A stretch of DNA of 64,000 nt from Rubrobacter tropicus (lineage in GTDB: Bacteria; Actinomycetota; Rubrobacteria; Rubrobacterales; Rubrobacteraceae). The stretch lies in NCBI RefSeq assembly GCF_011492945.1, contig NZ_CP045119.1:3348001-3412000 (forward strand), read 5' to 3'. The translations under genes were made by a program, and so were the position numbers. This document shows, piece by piece, positions 5,543 to 48,838 of the stretch. The notes under the pieces were generated by a model. That model did not search any database. It worked only from the letters and a program-made list of their open reading frames with translations, and was not told the origin of the DNA. Numbering within the stretch: the first letter of the stretch is position 1; every line of letters begins with the position of its first letter.

Positions 5543-6562
5543 ATGCGCGGGATGTTCTTCGCGCTCATACAGGAAGAGACGACGGGCGACCTGGCGGACG
5601 CCGCCGAAGACGCCACCAGGGACTCCAGATCCATCTTCAACGGGATCGGGGAGTTCCTGGGGAGCACTTACGATTACGTCGTCGGCCCGAACTTCATAGG
5701 CGACATCATCGCCTCGGCGCTCGTGGTGTTCCTCGGCCTCGTCTTCTACCGGATCCTGACCCGCGGGGTGCCCAAGGTGCTCAGGTGGCGGCGCCGGCGC
5801 CGGGATTTTCTCGACGCCGAGGCCGTCGCGCGCATCAAGCGCCAGGACACCGCGATCACCCTCACCCGCAACGCCCTGCGGTACGTGATCTTCTCCATAG
5901 TCGTCCTGGTCGTGATCAGCATCTTCATCAAGAACCCGCTCCCAGGCGTCGCCGGGGCCACGATCCTCGCCGCCGTCCTTGGTTTCGGGGCGCAGAGCTT
6001 CCTGCGGGACGTTATCGCCGGCTTCTCCATCGTCTTCGAGGGCCAGTACAGCGTCGGGGACTTCGTGGAGATCAGCCCCCCGCAAGGCGTGGCCGGCATC
6101 GTGGAAGAGCTCGGCCTTCGCATGACGAAGGTCCGCTCCCTCTCCGGCGAAGTGAGCTACATCCCAAACGGCGCGATCCTGGGCGTCACAAATTACATCT
6201 CGGGCCGCCAACGCTTTAACGTCGAGGTTCAAGTCTCTGATGCCGAAGCCGCCGAGAACGTCCTAAAGTCCCTCGACGAAGCGGCGGAACTGTACCTCAA
6301 CCCGCCGCGCCTCGCGGAGCGGAGCGAGACGGATGATGGCCGCGTCCGACTGCGCATCGTCGCGGGGGTCCTCCCCTCGATGGCCTGGCTCGTCGAAGAA
6401 CACCTCGTCGAACGCATAAAGGCGGCGGCCGGCGAAGAGTCGCTCGCCGCCGAACCCCTCGTCTACAAGGTAGACCAGGCGAACCTGCGTAGGGTCAGGG
6501 ACCTGCTGCCGCAAGAAGCGGAACGAAACCTGCCGCACGAGGCCGAAAAGAAGCTGAAGTAG
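5543..6562 (+). CDS. MscS-family mechanosensitive ion channel
   Basis: Membrane channel of 339 residues that opens under membrane tension to release solutes on hypo-osmotic shock. Hydrophobic segments lie near residues 50-75 and 110-130. The pore helix follows, with the Gly/Ala pattern AGATILAAVLGFGAQSFLRD, then the beta domain (FSIVFEGQYSVGDFVEI) and the conserved SYIPNGAI loop before the cytoplasmic alpha-beta cage. The tail is charged. The start ATG follows the stop of a small upstream frame without a clear ribosome-binding site; an in-frame ATG at 5552 is an alternative. It ends at the first heptad-repeat arm. Confidence 0.9.
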   Translation: MRGMFFALIQEETTGDLADAAEDATRDSRSIFNGIGEFLGSTYDYVVGPNFIGDIIASALVVFLGLVFYRILTRGVPKVLRWRRRRRDFLDAEAVARIKRQDTAITLTRNALRYVIFSIVVLVVISIFIKNPLPGVAGATILAAVLGFGAQSFLRDVIAGFSIVFEGQYSVGDFVEISPPQGVAGIVEELGLRMTKVRSLSGEVSYIPNGAILGVTNYISGRQRFNVEVQVSDAEAAENVLKSLDEAAELYLNPPRLAERSETDDGRVRLRIVAGVLPSMAWLVEEHLVERIKAAAGEESLAAEPLVYKVDQANLRRVRDLLPQEAERNLPHEAEKKLK

Positions 6563-6720
6563 AGGTTTCGGGTTACAGGTGTCAGGCTTCAGGGAACCGC
6601 ACTGCTCCTGGCGGAGAAGCCGTGCCGCCACAACGACCATGTCGCACGCCCCTATTCGGAGTCACGCCCTCCGCGCCCACGTACCAAACCGCAGGCCTGA
6701 TGCCTGTAACCTAAAGCCTA
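6563..6720. repeat. Heptad-repeat pair (TCAGGYW type), inverted arms
   Basis: The left arm (6563-6594) holds degenerate 7-bp units of the TCAGGYW type. The right arm (6691-6720) holds the reverse complement (CCTGATG, CCTGTAA, CCTAAAG). The arms flank about 95 nt with no gene. The right arm runs into the stop codon of the convergent LON-domain gene. The pair lies between convergent genes, where it could act as a transcription end structure. Confidence 0.6.
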
Positions 6721-7426: not shown

Positions 7427-8209
7427 GTGGAAGGCAGACCACACGCGGGCCGGGTCGCCCTGATCACCGGCGGAGGACGAGGCATCGGCGCGGCCACCGC
7501 ACGCCTGCTCGCCCGCGAGGGCGCCGCCGTCGCCGTGGCCGCCCGAACGGAGGAGGAGATATCCTCCGTGGCCCGCGAGATAGAGGCCGGCGGCAACACG
7601 GCCATCCCCGTACTCCTGGACGTCACGGACGAGGACTCGGTCTCCGCCGCCTTCGAGAAGGCCCGCGCCGGACTCGGACCCGTGGACATCTTGATAAACA
7701 ACGCGGGCACGCCGGGAGTCCCGCTCCCCGTCGCCCGGACGGAACTTTCCGACTGGCGCCGGGTCTTCGACGCGAACGTCACCGGCGCCTTTCTCTGCGC
7801 CAGGGAGGCGATGCCACACATGGTCTCCGGCGACTGGGGACGCATCGTCAACGTCTCTAGCGCCGCCGCCCGCCACCCGATGGCCGGCATGGCCGCTTAC
7901 GGGGCCTCCAAAGCGGCCCTCGACCAGCTAACCCGCGTCCTCGCCCTCGAAGGCGAACCGCACAACGTCGCCGTAACCGGCGTCTACCCGGGCGTGGTCG
8001 ATACCAGGATGCAGGAAAAATCCCGCGCCTTCCCGCCCGACCTCATCGGCAAACAGCTCTACCGCATGTTCCAGGGCTACAGCGACTTCGGAATGCTCCG
8101 CGCTCCCGAAGAACCCGCCGAGCTCATAAGCTACCTCTGCACGTCGGAGGCCGCCCGCCTGAACGGGCACATCATACGCCTGGAGCAACTCGAAGCGCTG
8201 AAGGAGTAG
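7427..8209 (+). CDS. SDR-family NAD(P)-dependent oxidoreductase
   Basis: Classical short-chain dehydrogenase/reductase of 260 residues. The cofactor loop is ALITGGGRGIGAATA, followed by NNAG (LINNAGTPGV). The catalytic set is present: Ser in NVSSAAA, then YGASKAALDQ with Tyr and Lys, and a PGVVDT loop after the active site. The GTG at 7427 is chosen because it gives the normal SDR N-terminus and sits 7 nt behind a TATAGT; longer frames upstream cross the divergent promoter. Substrate unknown. The gene ends at a heptad-repeat arm followed by a strong hairpin. Confidence 0.88.
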   Translation: MEGRPHAGRVALITGGGRGIGAATARLLAREGAAVAVAARTEEEISSVAREIEAGGNTAIPVLLDVTDEDSVSAAFEKARAGLGPVDILINNAGTPGVPLPVARTELSDWRRVFDANVTGAFLCAREAMPHMVSGDWGRIVNVSSAAARHPMAGMAAYGASKAALDQLTRVLALEGEPHNVAVTGVYPGVVDTRMQEKSRAFPPDLIGKQLYRMFQGYSDFGMLRAPEEPAELISYLCTSEAARLNGHIIRLEQLEALKE

Positions 8210-8375
8210 GCTTCAGGTTACAGGCATCAGGTAAGTCGTCTGTAGACTAACCCGGGTTCGTCGTACGCCAGCGCTTTGGCAACGCTTCTCTCGCTTCGGC
8301 TGTTGTAGAAAGCGGGAGGGCCGCGGTTCGCGCCGCGGCCCTCCTGTTAGCCGAAACCTGTAGCCTGAGACCTAC
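8210..8375. repeat. Heptad-repeat arms around a terminator hairpin
   Basis: Left arm 8210-8232 (TCAGGTTACAGGCATCAGG) and right arm 8351-8375 in reverse complement (CCTGTAGCCTGAGACCT). Between them lies the hairpin at 8315-8344. The unit separates two convergent transcripts: the SDR on the plus strand and the respiratory operon on the minus strand. Confidence 0.6.
8315..8344. terminator. 12-bp GC-rich hairpin between convergent genes
   Basis: A perfect 12-bp stem (8315-8326 with 8333-8344, GGAGGGCCGCGG) and a 6-nt loop. There is no clear T-tract on either side. It probably ends the SDR transcript, the respiratory operon transcript, or both. Confidence 0.65.
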
Positions 8376-20922: not shown

Positions 20923-21012
20923 GCTTTCAGCTATCAGCCCGCTGCGGCCTTCGGCCTCCGCTCTCAGCGGTCAGCTCTTGCTGAAAGCTGACCGCTGAAA
21001 GCTGACAGCTAA
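20923..21012. repeat. Heptad repeats (TCAGCYW type), inverted arms
   Basis: Left arm CTTTCAGCTATCAGCC at 20924-20939, a second inverted unit CTCTCAGCGGTCAGCTC at 20961-20977, and the complementary arm GCTGAAAGCTGACC / GCTGAAAGCTGACAGC at 20979-21010. The arms could form a long imperfect hairpin between the carboxypeptidase and otsB. Confidence 0.6.
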
Positions 21013-21047
21013 AGGCTCCAAGCCTGGACCGGGCGGGCGGCGGCGGG

Positions 21048-23868: not shown

Positions 23869-24056
23869 TCAGCCATCAGCTTTTAGCTTTTTGACTAGAA
23901 GCCGTCGTCGCTGACTCCCGCATAGCGCGTGTCAGGGATCCTCCGACGAGCACGGAGTATTCCTACGCGAAACCATCATACAATCACGAGAAGGAAAAGC
24001 TGACGGCTGAAAGCTGATGGCTGAAAGCTGATGGCTGAAAGCTGATGGCTGACAGC
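23869..24056. repeat. Heptad array with eight tandem units, plus inverted arm
   Basis: At 23998-24053 there are eight consecutive 7-bp units alternating AGCTGAT and GGCTGAA (first and last units end in C). The inverted arm at 23864-23889 (GGCTTTCAGCCATCAGC, TTTTAGC) lies just upstream of otsA. This is the longest and most regular array in the window and shows the 7-bp period plainly. Confidence 0.75.
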
Positions 24057-24079
24057 GCGGTCCGCCCACGGCGGACCGC
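24057..24079 (-). terminator. 10-bp hairpin at the end of treT
   Basis: Stem GCGGTCCGCC (24057-24066) with 24070-24079 and loop CAC. The right arm touches the treT stop codon (24079-24081). On the minus strand the hairpin is followed by the eight-unit heptad array and not by a T-run. Confidence 0.65.
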
Positions 24080-32531: not shown

Positions 32532-33170
32532 ATGTTCCTATATCTCTTCCAGAGCAACCCGTCAGCCGCCGTCGCGTTCCTTCTCGGGCTCGTGATCGGC
32601 ATAACCGTCCACGAGGCCGCCCACGCCACTTCCGCGTACCTGCTCGGGGACGACACCGCCTACCGAGACGGCAGGGTGACGCTCAACCCCGCCTCCCACC
32701 TCGACGTGCTCGGCAGCCTGATGCTGCTCATGGCCGGCTTCGGGTGGGGCAAGCCAACACCCGTGATGCCGTCCAAGTTGCGGGGCGGGGTGTTCGGCCC
32801 CGTCGCGGTCGCGCTCGCGGGCCCCGTCTCGAACCTCCTGATCGTGGCCGTGTGCGGCGTCCTGTTCCTCCTGCCAGCCTTCCAGGGCGGCTACCTGGCT
32901 ATCATCGTGCTGATGGTCGCATCCACCAACGCCCTACTCTTCGTCTTCAACCTCATCCCCATCCCCCCGCTCGACGGCTCGAAGATCCTCTTCCCGTTCC
33001 TCCCCCGCGCCCTGAACGGTTTCGTCGACTTCATGAACCAGTACGGACCGATGATCCTGTTCGGCCTGATCATAGTGGCAATCGTTATTCCAAGGTTCTC
33101 CATCTTCAACGTCCTGCTCTCCCCCATCCGCCCGCTCCTCCAACTGTTCGGCATGCCGTCGATTTTCTGA
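32532..33170 (+). CDS. Site-2 protease family (M50) membrane metallopeptidase
   Basis: Membrane protease of 212 residues. The zinc motif HEAAH (HExxH) is in the first helix (GITVHEAAHATSAYLLGD) and the third ligand region is FNLIPIPPLDGSKIL. WGKPTPV marks the family loop between them. No PDZ domain or CBS pair is present, so it is the minimal form. TATCAT lies 8 nt before the ATG without a ribosome-binding site, so this gene may also be leaderless. Substrate unknown; members cleave membrane-bound anti-sigma factors or signal peptides. Confidence 0.88.
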   Translation: MFLYLFQSNPSAAVAFLLGLVIGITVHEAAHATSAYLLGDDTAYRDGRVTLNPASHLDVLGSLMLLMAGFGWGKPTPVMPSKLRGGVFGPVAVALAGPVSNLLIVAVCGVLFLLPAFQGGYLAIIVLMVASTNALLFVFNLIPIPPLDGSKILFPFLPRALNGFVDFMNQYGPMILFGLIIVAIVIPRFSIFNVLLSPIRPLLQLFGMPSIF

Positions 33171-33202
33171 ATGTAAGGCATCGGGTTTCAGGCCACAAAA
33201 GA

Positions 33203-33256
33203 GGGGCGACGCGGTCCGTAGGGAGGGGGGAGAATCTACGGACTTTGCATCGCCCC
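33203..33256. ncRNA. Candidate structured RNA element 1 (two-helix hairpin)
   Basis: GGGGCGA (33203-33209) pairs with TCGCCCC (33250-33256), and inside it GTCCGTAG (33214-33221) pairs with CTACGGAC (33236-33243). The helices are separated by an internal loop (CGCG opposite TTTGCA) and closed by a 14-nt purine-rich loop. It begins 33 nt after the site-2 protease stop codon. It may be that gene's 3' end structure or the first domain of a longer RNA. Confidence 0.4.
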
Positions 33257-33296
33257 AATCAGTATTCTACATCCGAAAATGCAAAAGCGTGAGTTC

Positions 33297-33444
33297 AACC
33301 TCAGGTTTAATCTAAAATGGCTTCATACGCCCATCTTTCCGTCTCCCTGACCATGAGAGCGGCTTTCATACACTTTGAGCCGCCTGTTTGACGGAAAGAT
33401 GATCGGCAAGGCAAAGTTACCCGGAGAGATAAGGCATTGAGGTT
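33297..33444. ncRNA. Candidate structured RNA with three nested helices
   Basis: Three nested pairings: AACCTCA (33297-33303) with TGAGGTT (33438-33444); CATCTTTCCGTC (33332-33343) with GACGGAAAGATG (33390-33401), 12 bp perfect; GCGGCT (33359-33364) with AGCCGC (33378-33383). GC content is clearly lower than around it. The minus-strand frame here (63 codons) has no ribosome-binding site and no family match that I know. Consistent with a noncoding RNA or a cis-regulatory element; strand unknown. Confidence 0.4.
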
Positions 33445-33454
33445 CTGTAGGCCA

Positions 33455-33540
33455 TTAGGGGTGGAGGGTCGGGGCTTTCTCCCGGCTTCGTGACCCACCC
33501 CTAAAAACCTCGATACCTCAAAACCTTACGAACATCGAGG
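33455..33540. ncRNA. Conserved two-copy element, copy 1, with following hairpin
   Basis: The 63-nt block 33455-33517 aligns without gaps to 53537-53599 (48 of 63 identical by my count, the first 17 identical). It folds on a 10-bp outer stem: TTAGGGGTGG (33455-33464) with CCACCCCTAA (33495-33504). A further hairpin, CCTCGAT (33508-33514) with ATCGAGG (33534-33540), follows. Preserved ends and stem suggest an RNA or a protein-binding DNA repeat. Confidence 0.45.
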
Positions 33541-33571
33541 GCCAATCCTCATGCAAATCGCCGTAGGCCCG

Positions 33572-33618
33572 GGTTTTCAGGCAATTGCTGAAGCCCGATA
33601 CCTGAAACCTGAAGCCCA
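33572..33618. repeat. Heptad repeats (TCAGGYW type)
   Basis: GGTTTTCAGGCAATTGC then TGAAGCCCGATACCTGAAACCTGAAGCC: TCAGG-type units and their complement close the gene-free stretch 33171-33620. The matching outer piece is GGTTTCAGGCC near 33184. The whole gap therefore holds two candidate RNAs, one copy of the two-copy element and heptad arms, but no gene that I can support. Confidence 0.5.
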
Positions 33619-33620
33619 TA

Positions 33621-35429
33621 TTAGTTCGGGCTCTGGGGGGTCTCCGTCAGGGGAAGGACGACGGAGAAGGTGCTGCCCGTTTCGGGCCGGCTCTCGACCC
33701 TTATCGTGCCGCCGAGGTGGTCCGTGATCTCGCGGGCGAGGGCAAGGCCGAGGCCCGTGCCGTCGGCGCGGGAGGAGCCTTCGGCCCGGTAGAAGCGGTC
33801 GAAGATGTGCGGGATCTCCGTCTCGGGGATGCCGCACCCGCGGTCCGTAACGCCGACGACGGCGTGCCCGTTCTCCCTGGAGAGCTCCAGGCGTACGGGA
33901 GACCCGTCTTCGGAGTACTTGATGGCGTTGTCGACCAGGATGGTGAGCGTCCTGTGAAGCTGGTTCGGGTCGGCCTCGACGGGAGGAACGTCCTCCTCGA
34001 CCTTGATGTCGATGGGGCGCCCCGTGAACCCGAACTCGCGGCGCAGGTCGTGGAGCAATTCTTCGAGGTGCACCTCCTCGGATCGGAAGGTGACGGCGTT
34101 GGCGTCCAGGCGGGAGAGGTCGAGCAGGGTCTGGGCCAGGCCTTTGAGGCGCTCGGTCTGGCCGCGCATCTCGTTCAAAAACTTGGTCCGGTACTCCTCG
34201 TCCTCCTCGTCTTCGAGCATCTCCAGGTAGCCGGAGAGGGCGGCGATCGGGGTCTTGAGCTCGTGCGAGGCGTTGGCTATAAAGTCGGCCTTGGCCCGCT
34301 GGACCCGGCGCTCGTCGGTGACGTCCCGCAGGATGGCGAGGGCGCCGTCCTCCAGGGGGGCGGCCCGGATCTCTATGACGCGGTCCCCGGCCTCGGCCTC
34401 CGGCTCGGTAACGGGCCCGGAGTAGCGGGTCTTGGCGAGGACCTCCTGCAGTCGGACGTGGAACTCGTGCGGGGTCGATTCGAGAAGCTCCTTGGCCCGG
34501 GGGTTGGTGAAGACGGGCTCGAGATCCCTGTCCACGCCGACGACCGCGTCGGTCATGCCGTTCAGGATGGCGTTACCGCGTTCCTTCTCCTGCTCGATCT
34601 GGCCGAAAGCGTCCTTCATGGAGGCCGCCATCGCGTTGAACGACGAGGCCAGGGAGCCGAGTTCGTCCCCGACGTGGGTGTTTATGCGCTCGTCGAAGTT
34701 GCCGTAAGCCAGACTCTCGGCCGCGACGTTCAGGCGGTCCACCCGGCGCGAGATCAGGACCGCCGCGAAGTACCCCGCGAAACCCGCGATAAGGAGCGCG
34801 AGGCCGCCGGCGAGAAGGGCCAGTCCCTCTATGTTGTTGAGCGTGGCCTCGGCGTTCTCTATATCGCTGCCGGTGTAGTACCGATTGAAGACGATGGCGG
34901 TGTTCGGTATCTCGCGGCCCTCGTCGTCCCTCACGTCCTGGATCGGGACGGCGTAGGTGGCCTGCAACTGCCCCTCGTGCCGGCCGGCAGGCGCCGGCAA
35001 TGTGTTCCACTTCGACTCTCCGGTCTTGACAGCGATCTTTGCGACCCCCGGGATCCAGTCCAGTTCGCTGTCGCCCTTGAGCCGCACGCCCTCCTGCGCC
35101 TGCACTATCCCCCACTGGAGGTTCCTGGTCTCCGCAAAGTCCTCCATATCCTGTAGGGTCGGCGAGGGATCGCGCCGTAGCTGCGTATTCCATTGCTCGG
35201 CAACCTGGCGGAAGGCGGCGTCGCTTGCCCGGCCGAGTGACTCTTCCAGGATGGGACGCACGATGCCGTAGGCGGCCACGGCGGAGACGGCCGTGACGAG
35301 CACGAAGAGTACGGTGAGCCAGACCCGGATGCTCAGGCGCGGCCTGAGTCCCTCTATCGTCTTCAGGGAGGGCAGCTTCGGGCTCTGGGGCCGGGGCTTT
35401 CGGTCGGGCTTCTTCCTAGCGGAAAACAT
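33621..35429 (-). CDS. Membrane sensor histidine kinase (HAMP-PAS-HisKA, PhoR/WalK type)
   Basis: Sensor kinase of 602 residues paired with the PhoB-like regulator. A basic cytoplasmic start precedes helix 1 (about 36-58), an extracellular domain of about 145 residues and helix 2 (about 205-228). HAMP (RRVDRLNVAAESLAYGNFDERI), PAS (AILNGMTDAVVGVDRD...) and HisKA with SHELKTPIAALSGYLE follow, then the ATPase with DNAIKYSEDGSP (N), DRGCGIPETEI (G1) and DGTGLGLALAREI (G2). ATG 35429 overlaps the regulator stop; GTG 35441 is an alternative. Confidence 0.92.
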   Translation of the reverse strand: MFSARKKPDRKPRPQSPKLPSLKTIEGLRPRLSIRVWLTVLFVLVTAVSAVAAYGIVRPILEESLGRASDAAFRQVAEQWNTQLRRDPSPTLQDMEDFAETRNLQWGIVQAQEGVRLKGDSELDWIPGVAKIAVKTGESKWNTLPAPAGRHEGQLQATYAVPIQDVRDDEGREIPNTAIVFNRYYTGSDIENAEATLNNIEGLALLAGGLALLIAGFAGYFAAVLISRRVDRLNVAAESLAYGNFDERINTHVGDELGSLASSFNAMAASMKDAFGQIEQEKERGNAILNGMTDAVVGVDRDLEPVFTNPRAKELLESTPHEFHVRLQEVLAKTRYSGPVTEPEAEAGDRVIEIRAAPLEDGALAILRDVTDERRVQRAKADFIANASHELKTPIAALSGYLEMLEDEEDEEYRTKFLNEMRGQTERLKGLAQTLLDLSRLDANAVTFRSEEVHLEELLHDLRREFGFTGRPIDIKVEEDVPPVEADPNQLHRTLTILVDNAIKYSEDGSPVRLELSRENGHAVVGVTDRGCGIPETEIPHIFDRFYRAEGSSRADGTGLGLALAREITDHLGGTIRVESRPETGSTFSVVLPLTETPQSPN

Positions 35430-36114
35430 ATCCGACACCACGCGCGGTGTGGATAAACTCGGGGTTGCGGGGGTCGCGTTCGATCTTCTCGCGCAGGTGC
35501 CTGATGTGGACGTCCACGGTCCGCTCGTCGCGAAACTCGTCGCCCCAGACCCGCCGCAAAAGCGCGCTGCGCGAGAAGACCCGGCCGGGGCTGGAGGCGA
35601 GGGTCACCAACAATTCGAACTCCGTGTAGGTAAGGTCCACCTCCGTCCCGTCCACGGAGACCCGCCGGCTCGGCAGGTTGATGCGGAGTCTGTCGTAGGT
35701 GAGCTCGTCGGGACGCTGGCCCGCGGGGACGGCCGCGCGGCGCATGATCGCACGCACCCGCGCAACCAGCTCCCTGACGGCGAACGGTTTTGTTACGTAG
35801 TCGTCGGCGCCGAGTTCCAGGCCCACCACCCGGTCTATCTCGTCGTCCTTGGCCGTCAGCATGATGACCGGCACCTCGCTCTGCGCCCGGATGCGGCGGA
35901 TGACCTCGGTGCCGTCGAGCTTGGGGAGCATGATGTCGAGCACTATGAGGTGCGGTTCGTAGCTCTTGAAAGCTTCCAGGGCGGCCTCGCCGTCGCCGGC
36001 TACCTGGATCTGGAACCCCTCCCGCTCCAGCGCGTGCGTGAGCATCTTCTGGAGCGACGGCTCGTCGTCTACCAGAAGTATCTTGCGCGTAACGCCCTGT
36101 AAGTCCTGAACCAT
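35416..36114 (-). CDS. OmpR/PhoB-family response regulator
   Basis: Response regulator of 232 residues. The receiver has D16-D17, phospho-acceptor D60 (LIVLDIMLPKLDG), Thr in MLTAKDD and Lys in VTKPFAVREL. The winged-helix DNA-binding domain (about 140-232) ends in the typical VDVHIRHLREKIERDP then IHTARGVGYVFR. Start ATG at 36114, stop overlapping the kinase start by 14 nt. With the PAS- and HAMP-containing partner it resembles PhoPR/WalRK-type systems; no phosphate or cell-wall regulon is adjacent to settle which. Confidence 0.93.
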   Translation of the reverse strand: MVQDLQGVTRKILLVDDEPSLQKMLTHALEREGFQIQVAGDGEAALEAFKSYEPHLIVLDIMLPKLDGTEVIRRIRAQSEVPVIMLTAKDDEIDRVVGLELGADDYVTKPFAVRELVARVRAIMRRAAVPAGQRPDELTYDRLRINLPSRRVSVDGTEVDLTYTEFELLVTLASSPGRVFSRSALLRRVWGDEFRDERTVDVHIRHLREKIERDPRNPEFIHTARGVGYVFR

Positions 36115-36192
36115 CGCCCGTTACAACTTTCTCGACGCTGACCGGGTGCCGCCGTGCGGCTGCCCGGATTTTAGCATGATAAGCGTGTTTTG

Positions 36193-36388
36193 AGGCATCA
36201 GGTTTCAGGCATCAGGCTTCAGTGACGGCCGACACCCGGCGTCGCAGAACAGGCTCTCCTGTTGACACACACGCTTCCCACAAAAGCTACTATCGAGCCC
36301 CGAACCTCAAACAACGGCATCCGTCCCGGCCCTCAAAACCTGAAAGCCTCCGAGGGAGGCGACCTGAAACCCGAAGCCTGAAAGCACT
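36193..36388. repeat. Heptad repeats (TCAGGYW type), inverted arms
   Basis: Left arm 36193-36222: four tandem units AGGCATC, AGGTTTC, AGGCATC, AGGCTTC. Right arm 36338-36388 has CCTGAAAGCCTCC, CCTGAAACC and CGAAGCCTGAAAGC in the opposite sense. About 110 nt between them holds no gene I can support. The right arm abuts the end of the exonuclease-UvrC gene. Confidence 0.6.
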
Positions 36389-39283: not shown

Positions 39284-39465
39284 CAGGTTGCAGGTTTCGA
39301 GATAGGCCTCAGGCATCAGGTCTCGGGCATCAGGGGTGCGACACGACGCGTTGGCCCGTAAGGCGCGAGGGCGGTGAGGATCGGGCGGTGTCGTCGCGGC
39401 GAAACAACCCCTTACGCCGCGGAGACGTGCTTGCTGAAGCCTGTAGCCTGAGACCTGAAGCCTCA
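39284..39465. repeat. Heptad repeats (TCAGGYW type), inverted arms
   Basis: Left arm 39279-39336 (GGCTTCAGGTTGCAGG, GGCCTCAGGCATCAGG, TCTCGGGCATCAGG). Right arm 39434-39465 (TGAAGCCTGTAGCCTGAGAC, CTGAAGCCTC) ends in the moeA stop codon. The roughly 100 nt between the arms hold no supported gene. Confidence 0.55.
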
Positions 39466-40692
39466 AAGCAGTTTCTCTTCGCGCAAGACTATCGCCTCGA
39501 CTGGCTCGCCGGCGCTGACGCCCTCGGATTCCGGGCCGATCAGGGCCAGGGCGTCGGCCTTCGTCAGGGAGCTTACGAGGCCCGAGCCCTGGGCGCCGAC
39601 CGACCGGGCCAGCCAGCCTCTCTCCGTTCTCTCCAGGGAGACCCTCATCGCGTGCATCCGGCCGAACTTGTTTACGACGTCTTCCTCGAAGTACACGGGG
39701 ACGCGCGGCCTCCCCTTGTCCTCGCGGCCCATCATGCCCATCAGGGCGGGGCGGACGAAGAGGTCGAAGCAGACCATCGCGGAGACGGGGTTGCCGGGGA
39801 GGCCGAAGAAGCGGGTCTCGTCGCGTTTGCCGTAGAAGAGGGGCTTGCCCGGCTTGAACTTCACGCCCCAGAAGACCTGCTCGACGCCGAGGTCTAGCAG
39901 GGTGCTCTTGACGAGGTCCTTCTCCCCCACGGAGACGCCACCGCTCGTCACGACGACGTCGGCCGTCTCCAGGGCCTCTTCTATGGCGGCGCGCAGCGTC
40001 CCGGCGTCGTCCGAGGCCGCGTAGAGGCGGCGGGCGCCGGCGCCGGCCTCGCGGGCCTGGGCGACGATGGCGTAGGAGTTGGAGTCGAAGATCTCGCCCG
40101 GGGCGAGGTCGCGGGTCCCTGGCTCCACGAGCTCCGTCCCCGTCGAGAGGACGACCACCCTCGGCCTGCGGAAGACGGGCAGGGTTCCGTAGCCTTGCGT
40201 GGCGGCAAGCGCGATCTCTGGCGCCCCGATCTCGGTCCCCGCCCGCAGGATCGTGTCCCCCTTTTGGGTGTCCTGGCCCGCCTCGCGGATGTTCTGCCCG
40301 GGGGACGCGCCCTTCTTCAACTCGAAGCTCTCGCCCCAGCCCGAGGTGTTCTCGACCATCACCGTCGCGTCGGCGCCTTCGGGGATGACGCCGCCGGTGA
40401 AGATCTTGATGGCTTCGCCTTCTCCGACGCTCTTCTCCGCCGGACGCCCGGCCGGCGCCTCGTCGACCACCCGAAACGTCCGTCCAGCCTCAGCGTCCGC
40501 GCTCCTCACGGCGTAACCGTCCACGGCGCTATTATCGAACGGCGGCGAATCTACTGTAGCCCGCAGGTCCTCGGCGAGCGCGAGGCCCAAGGCCTCTCCC
40601 AGCGGCGTCTCTTCTACCGGCAATCGGTGGGTGTTGTCGAGCACCAGCCTCTCGGCGTCGGGGTACTCCATAAGCTTCTCGAAAAGTTGCAC
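39463..40692 (-). CDS. moeA: Molybdopterin molybdotransferase
   Basis: Enzyme of 409 residues that inserts molybdate into adenylated molybdopterin in the cytoplasm. Typical MoeA marks: ATVDSPPFDNSAVDGYAVR, KIFTGGVIPEGADATVMVE, RVVVLSTGTELVEPG, GEIFDSNSYAI, VVTSGGVSVGEKDLVK and FFGLPGNPVSAMVCFDLFV. Four-domain length is normal. ATG start at 40692. It stands alone, with the other cofactor genes elsewhere; a 103-nt gap separates it from the RidA gene upstream on the same strand. Confidence 0.95.
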   Translation of the reverse strand: MQLFEKLMEYPDAERLVLDNTHRLPVEETPLGEALGLALAEDLRATVDSPPFDNSAVDGYAVRSADAEAGRTFRVVDEAPAGRPAEKSVGEGEAIKIFTGGVIPEGADATVMVENTSGWGESFELKKGASPGQNIREAGQDTQKGDTILRAGTEIGAPEIALAATQGYGTLPVFRRPRVVVLSTGTELVEPGTRDLAPGEIFDSNSYAIVAQAREAGAGARRLYAASDDAGTLRAAIEEALETADVVVTSGGVSVGEKDLVKSTLLDLGVEQVFWGVKFKPGKPLFYGKRDETRFFGLPGNPVSAMVCFDLFVRPALMGMMGREDKGRPRVPVYFEEDVVNKFGRMHAMRVSLERTERGWLARSVGAQGSGLVSSLTKADALALIGPESEGVSAGEPVEAIVLREEKLL

Positions 40693-42036: not shown

Positions 42037-42140
42037 AGAGGTTTCAGGTTTCAGGTCGCCTGCTTCGCAGGCTCTCAGGCTTCGGGGCGCGAGGTCGGGA
42101 CCCCGACCCGCCAACCACCCCTGATGCCTGGAGCCTGTTC
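42037..42140. repeat. Heptad repeats between LarA-like and cyclase genes
   Basis: Left arm 42040-42056 (GGTTTCAGGTTTCAGG) plus CTCTCAGGCTTCGG at 42070-42083; right arm CCTGATGCCTGGAGCCTG at 42120-42137, next to the stop of the LarA-like gene. A small GCCTGC/GCAGGC hairpin (42058-42072) lies inside. The arrays separate two genes that otherwise look like one operon. Confidence 0.5.
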
Positions 42141-48747: not shown

Positions 48748-48765
48748 GAGTCTCCCTGAGTAGAG

Positions 48766-48838
48766 GCTTCAGGTGTCAGGTGACAGGCATCAGCAAAAAC
48801 CTCGAAAGCTGATGCCTGTAGCCTGAAGCCTGTCACCT
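48766..48838. repeat. Long hairpin of heptad units inside the ABC transporter operon
   Basis: Left arm 48766-48795 and right arm 48809-48838 are imperfect reverse complements built of TCAGGYW heptads, with a 13-nt loop. The right arm overlaps the stop codon of the binding-protein gene. It is the most compact example of the inverted arrangement and would fold readily in the transcript. Confidence 0.7.

Follow-up and report, generated by a model that had tools for sequence, protein, structure and literature searches.

Between two convergent genes of Rubrobacter tropicus, a member of the class Rubrobacteria, which is known for radiation and heat tolerance, a gap of 450 nt contains several inverted repeats and raises the question of whether it encodes a structured RNA, how far such an RNA would extend and what it might do. 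The gap (33171-33620) lies in a window of 64,000 nt, the whole stretch of DNA analysed here (contig NZ_CP045119.1, positions 3,348,001 to 3,412,000), to which all coordinates refer. A first-pass annotation, made from the letters alone, had described a gene-free, lower-GC stretch and had joined a hairpin (33203-33256) and a nested structure with a perfect 12-bp helix into one feature, a candidate structured RNA of no known family. The setting is as described, with a GC content of 0.51-0.55 in the gap vs about 0.65-0.72 in the adjacent genes. The joined feature is in fact two unrelated things with different histories, namely a hairpin RNA gene on the left, which is conserved in the class, and on the right a mostly inserted repeat element, where the 12-bp helix is not conserved. 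The proposal of a structured RNA therefore holds for the left hairpin and fails for the 12-bp helix, which is absent from the relatives and has its right arm in a dispersed repeat.

A conserved hairpin on the minus strand

Fold and inverted-repeat analysis bore out the hairpin with an internal loop at 33203-33256. On the minus strand it has a lower stem of 8-10 bp, an internal loop, an upper stem of 8 bp and a 14-nt apical loop, and its folding energy of -32.5 kcal/mol (z = -7.6) was reached by none of 500 shuffles; we propose that it may be the whole mature RNA. The apical loop AUUCUCCCCCCUCC (33222-33235, minus strand) is C-rich with a conserved core, and is the presumed target-binding site.

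A blastn search with 33195-33341 (E<=0.01) located the sequence in 22 of the 39 class genomes, each time as a single match, and in all 22 members thus found the 15-mer ATTCTCCCCCCTCCC occurs once per locus, inside the hairpin. The covariance model R1 raised the number to 34 of 39 at E<=1 (33 at E<=0.01), and it found no match in 357 other genomes of the phylum, searched with stricter filters. The sequence CCCCCCUCCC is retained in the hairpin in 31 of the 34 genomes, and a run of six consecutive C in the hairpin loop, CCCCCCTCCC, is likewise present in 31 of the 34. The stems are variable, in contrast to the nearly invariant core of the loop. Within the genus, all 9 of 9 genomes searched with 33171-33431, the own genome among them, matched the left part strongly; for the other eight this match begins at 33195-33203 and stops between 33306 and 33341, and the rest are a few weak matches to 33354-33427 and to a short repeat at the left edge. 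Scanning genome contigs for a 19-base loop pattern returned 23 stretches, eight of which are true members by model score (75-80 bits), seven in Rubrobacter or Rubrobacteraceae records, among them the R. marinus chromosome NZ_CP045121.1, and one in an Actinomycetota record. The other 15 were set aside as chance, with model scores of 28.7 or less or none at all and with stems absent by eye.

Five genomes of the class gave no match to R1. In two complete genomes of genus g7 (G018 and G019) the kinase and peptidase genes lie some tens of bases apart without the hairpin, and in G016 both genes are present without a hairpin between them, so the RNA is dispensable. The remaining two, G012 and G033, are 60% and 83% complete, and the peptidase gene was not found in them. 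In G016 (locus L146) a stretch like the promoter-upstream box remains, which would fit a loss of the RNA.

The first-pass annotation had suggested a covariance-model search for compensatory changes, and for the left hairpin the outcome is positive. In the 20-row alignment A2, which omits L035 (its hairpin is identical to that of L034) and L060 (divergent upper stem), 96.2% of the stem cells pair, and this value falls to 28-48% when the partner is slid by 1-3 columns. Both sides have changed at 9 of 17 pairs, in 27 such cells, vs shuffle means of 3.9 and 8.5, neither figure being reached in 500 shuffles; the tally of additional pair types stands out less, with 62 of 500 shuffles reaching it. 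In the structure-fitted alignment A3 (32 rows, 29 distinct), both sides have changed at 12 of 17 pairs; it holds 32 of the 34 sources, the other two being the weak members L103 and L104, which fell to an E-value cut set to exclude antisense matches. Alignment A1 omits L038, which has Ns downstream.

The wobble pairs tell the strands apart, which the first-pass annotation had not done. Over 16 pairs, G-U on the minus strand outnumbers A-C, which equals G-U on the plus strand, by 32 to 3 (33 to 9 once the outermost pair of the upper stem is included), and the transcript should therefore be the minus strand; a plus-strand RNA is ruled out by this asymmetry together with the side on which the -10 box lies. 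Sequence comparison thus shows a hairpin of the minus strand that is conserved and covaries, has a loop core that does not vary and lies in a fixed gene order; 33203-33256 is very probably a conserved RNA gene of the minus strand, and probably a regulatory one.

Gene neighbourhood, promoter and 3' end

Downstream of the RNA and convergent with it lies a gene of an M50-family peptidase (Pfam; 32532-33170, plus strand). On the same strand as the RNA and 5' of it are a sensor histidine kinase with HAMP, HisKA and HATPase_c domains (Pfam; 33621-35441, minus strand) and an OmpR/PhoB-family response regulator (Pfam Response_reg and Trans_reg_C; 35416-36114, minus strand), the candidate activator of the RNA, for which the nearest NCBIfam models are YycF, MtrA, RpaB and PhoB, every one below its cut-off. 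The order nuclease, response regulator, kinase and RNA on one strand, with the kinase adjoining the RNA and the peptidase convergent, is found in 21/21 loci, a set made of the window and 20 loci fetched from the 34 genomes with a match; the nuclease we take to be UvrC-like. Two more neighbours are conserved, in 20/21 and 18/21 loci. The distance from the kinase match to the RNA is 367 nt in the window and 62-210 nt in the remaining 20 loci. The window contains no tRNA or tmRNA.

Signals of a separate transcription unit accompany the conserved hairpin, as far as they can be recognized from the letters. The putative -10 box TAGAAT (33264-33269, minus strand) is conserved across the members as TARAAT: 33 of the 34 genomes have it 4-10 nt upstream of the hairpin, and none of the 34 has it at the mirror position on the opposite strand. 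Its spacing is mostly 6-7 nt, from which the start is expected at or near the first G of the stem. No -35 consensus is evident upstream of the RNA. Past the hairpin, the T-rich stretch TCTTTTGTGG (33193-33202, minus strand) is the presumed 3' end; TTT occurs within 10 nt in 27/34 genomes vs 6/34 for the mirror signal, the misses including G003, whose sequence there consists of unreadable Ns. A generic promoter scan and a generic terminator scan (loops of 3-8) called nothing. The view that the structure is an RNA rather than a terminator thus stands in so far as a conserved RNA gene is concerned, and needs amendment in that the hairpin with its T-rich stretch probably also ends its own transcript.

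Further upstream, the conserved region 33287-33329 (minus strand) carries direct repeats with an 11-bp period and is the presumed site of the response regulator. The self-match of the upstream letters at lag 11 is 0.372 vs 0.254 (sd 0.023) in shuffles, and in none of 5000 shuffles did any lag from 4 to 21, 11 included, give so high a value; the test took a single row from each of the 12 matched genera except g10, which is without a TARAAT box, and thus 11 rows, was chosen after viewing the upstream letters although it covers all lags, and compares with letter shuffles, which lose the dinucleotide composition. An example of such a repeat is TTAACgcaatcTTAAC in locus L103. A spacing of 11 bp is typical for sites of the OmpR/PhoB family, and we give an even chance to control of the RNA by the neighbouring response regulator.

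A repeat element on the right

The perfect 12-bp helix, to which the first-pass annotation gave most weight, is real, with arms at 33332-33343 and 33390-33401; when the 450-bp gap was shuffled 300 times with its dinucleotides kept, a perfect arm of at least 12 arose once. Nevertheless, it is no part of the RNA: the helix is missing from the relatives, so it failed the test of compensatory changes and was rejected as an RNA part. The alignment with G004 ends at 33341, without the right arm, and soon afterwards the G004 sequence enters one of the short dispersed repeats, of type CCGAAGCCTGATACC.

The right-hand structure itself extends beyond 33444, to about 33566. Compared with its own genome, the gap gave 47 matches at E<=10, self included, mostly to 33432-33572, with seven more loci of this genome matching within 33430-33567. 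The copies L010, L042 and L044 end in inverted repeats of 20-30 nt, 77-84% complementary, around AGCGGCTT/AAGCCGCT; the right end of the window copy is degenerate. The repeat is not found in the kinase-peptidase locus of the relatives. With terminal inverted repeats and many copies, 33356-33566 (ends approximate) can be read as a MITE-like insertion, apparently placed between the kinase gene and the RNA promoter; this half of the structure resembles MITEs in a length of about 150-210 bp, in inverted ends around AGCGGYTT/AAGCCGCT and in many scattered copies.

Two minor observations concern this element. The 12-bp inverted repeat bridges its left boundary, with the left arm outside and the right arm inside. 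The family (33356-33566; L002-L008, L010, L042, L044 and L046), with ends around AGCGGYTT/AAGCCGCT, occupies tens of places in its own genome and occurs also in the genus relative G006.

Relation to known RNAs

The Rfam scan of the window gave nothing above threshold. On the gap there were only weak chance matches (SpR10 and mir-1224), 6C not among them, and on 12 of the 34 member loci only one weak mcrA fragment and again no 6C. The 6C model RF01066 matched none of the 39 class genomes; in the control search it responded in one of 14 controls, Corynebacterium glutamicum, below the cut-off.

The 6C RNA has two hairpins with C-rich loops. In the Rubrobacter locus one hairpin is conserved, and only the promoter region is otherwise common to the relatives. 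Both RNAs are small and actinobacterial, with six C in a row in a hairpin loop, whereas the gene neighbours differ; by the tests made here the Rubrobacter RNA is not a 6C RNA. The nearest published case is B11 (RF01066) of Mycobacterium abscessus (PMC10470900). It has two C-rich loops, unlike the single one here, and these loops repress through a six-guanosine tract; a leader with such a tract could bind either loop, and loop mutants were made to test this. The Rubrobacter RNA most likely functions as a C-rich-loop RNA too.

Small RNAs with C-rich motifs resembling an anti-Shine-Dalgarno sequence are also known as the UCCC-motif RNAs of Staphylococcus and the CCUCCUCCC RNAs of Alphaproteobacteria. 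What they share with the present RNA is a single-stranded, C-rich motif that can bind ribosome-binding sites by base pairing, but they belong to other phyla and have other architectures and sequences, and the Rubrobacter RNA has no Rfam match. Among the titles and abstract openings listed for 6C RNA in Actinobacteria and for small or non-coding RNA of Rubrobacter, none contains a description of this RNA, and a search for work linking anti-Shine-Dalgarno C-rich hairpin RNAs to two-component systems found none.

Alternative explanations

Several other readings of the locus have to be weighed. The least probable of all is the one drawn in the first-pass annotation, in which a single large RNA structure takes up all of 33203-33444, or even the 450-nt gap: on either strand the gap does fold more stably than its shuffles (z -6.2 and -5.5), but the relatives have at most 33195-33341 in common, 33354-33572 matches scattered repeats, and the -10 box at 33264-33269 would fall inside such an RNA. 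Hardly more credible is a DNA element, that is, a protein-bound cruciform or site, with which the single copy and the fixed place would agree, since the G-U pairs belong to one strand (32 to 3) and it is on that strand that the -10 box and the T-rich tail are found. A mere terminator common to the convergent kinase and peptidase genes also seems improbable. The hairpin does resemble intrinsic terminators between convergent genes in its GC-rich stem, its T-rich tail (27/34) and its position, which is the same in 21/21 loci; what sets it apart is a long stem with an internal loop, an invariant loop core of 10-14 nt that termination does not need, a 14-nt loop that is long for the purpose (the scan with loops of 3-8 was negative), and a -10 box of its own between the kinase gene and the hairpin in 33/34 genomes, which points to a separate transcript.

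The main rival accepts a real RNA and supposes that the C-rich loop binds a protein, as a sponge or scaffold, rather than mRNA. We consider this unlikely, though the strongest of the alternatives; a loop core that is nearly invariant while the stems vary would suit it, and so would pattern scans without a target signal, whereas no candidate protein was identified and the published actinobacterial C-rich-loop RNAs pair with mRNA (PMC10470900). In six genomes, G-rich patterns at start sites gave 12 matches vs 10 in reversed controls, which is no enrichment, and in 39 genomes 880 vs 768, at near-equal ratios in genomes with the RNA (821:717) and without it (59:51); these scans are crude, as six paired bases may suffice and the gene starts were not annotated. 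One candidate target common to G004 and G006 has an altered site in G000.

Proposed function

The best overall explanation is probably a trans-acting RNA with a C-rich loop, activated by the regulator, with the right half of the structure a separate insertion, and it is built on sequence features and on the resemblance to C-rich-loop RNAs of other Actinobacteria, which act in trans. Counting against it are the lack of a -35 consensus, the empty generic promoter and terminator scans, the start-site patterns without enrichment and the absence of the RNA from the two g7 genomes and G016. The RNA would be a single hairpin of about 60 nt, starting at or next to the first G from the promoter with TAGAAT at 33264-33269 and ending in the T-rich stretch 3' of the hairpin; promoter and 3' end are deduced from conserved sequence. 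Its 14-nt apical loop would display CCCCCCUCC(C) for pairing, and we lean slightly towards mRNAs as the partners of this pairing. The G-rich stretches bound would most plausibly be ribosome-binding sites, so that the translation of several mRNAs would be lowered. The neighbouring response regulator might bind the 11-bp direct repeats 5' of the -10 box and switch the RNA on, which would make it the RNA arm of the neighbouring two-component system.

More tentatively, with a chance that we put a little short of even, this could be an unreported small RNA family of Rubrobacteria whose members consist of a hairpin and nothing else, starting at the first stem base and ending right after the stem. 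With its anti-Shine-Dalgarno-like C-rich loop, such an RNA would serve a WalR/MtrA/PhoB-like two-component system as its RNA output and represent a minimal C-rich-loop regulator that arose apart from the 6C RNA. If so, a radiation- and heat-tolerant class of Actinobacteria would have its own RNA family, and the family would illustrate how small a regulator of the C-rich-loop kind can be, since one hairpin would both recognize the targets and terminate the transcript. Clear predictions follow from the fixed neighbours and from a loop that hardly varies, predictions that are testable in cultured Rubrobacter species.

Other repeats in the window

Short dispersed repeats of the CTGAAGCCTGATACCTGAAACCTGAAGCC type occur in many intergenic gaps on both strands, with copies elsewhere in the genome; in the window they lie at 6562-6590, 8207-8235, 33588-33616, 36192-36222, 39310-39338, 39424-39471, 42038-42066 and 48756-48831. 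Tandem repeats of GCTGAAAGCTGAYGGCTGAAAGCTGA with a 14-nt spacing are found at 20980-21031 and 23992-24057, in a style like that of the short dispersed repeats.
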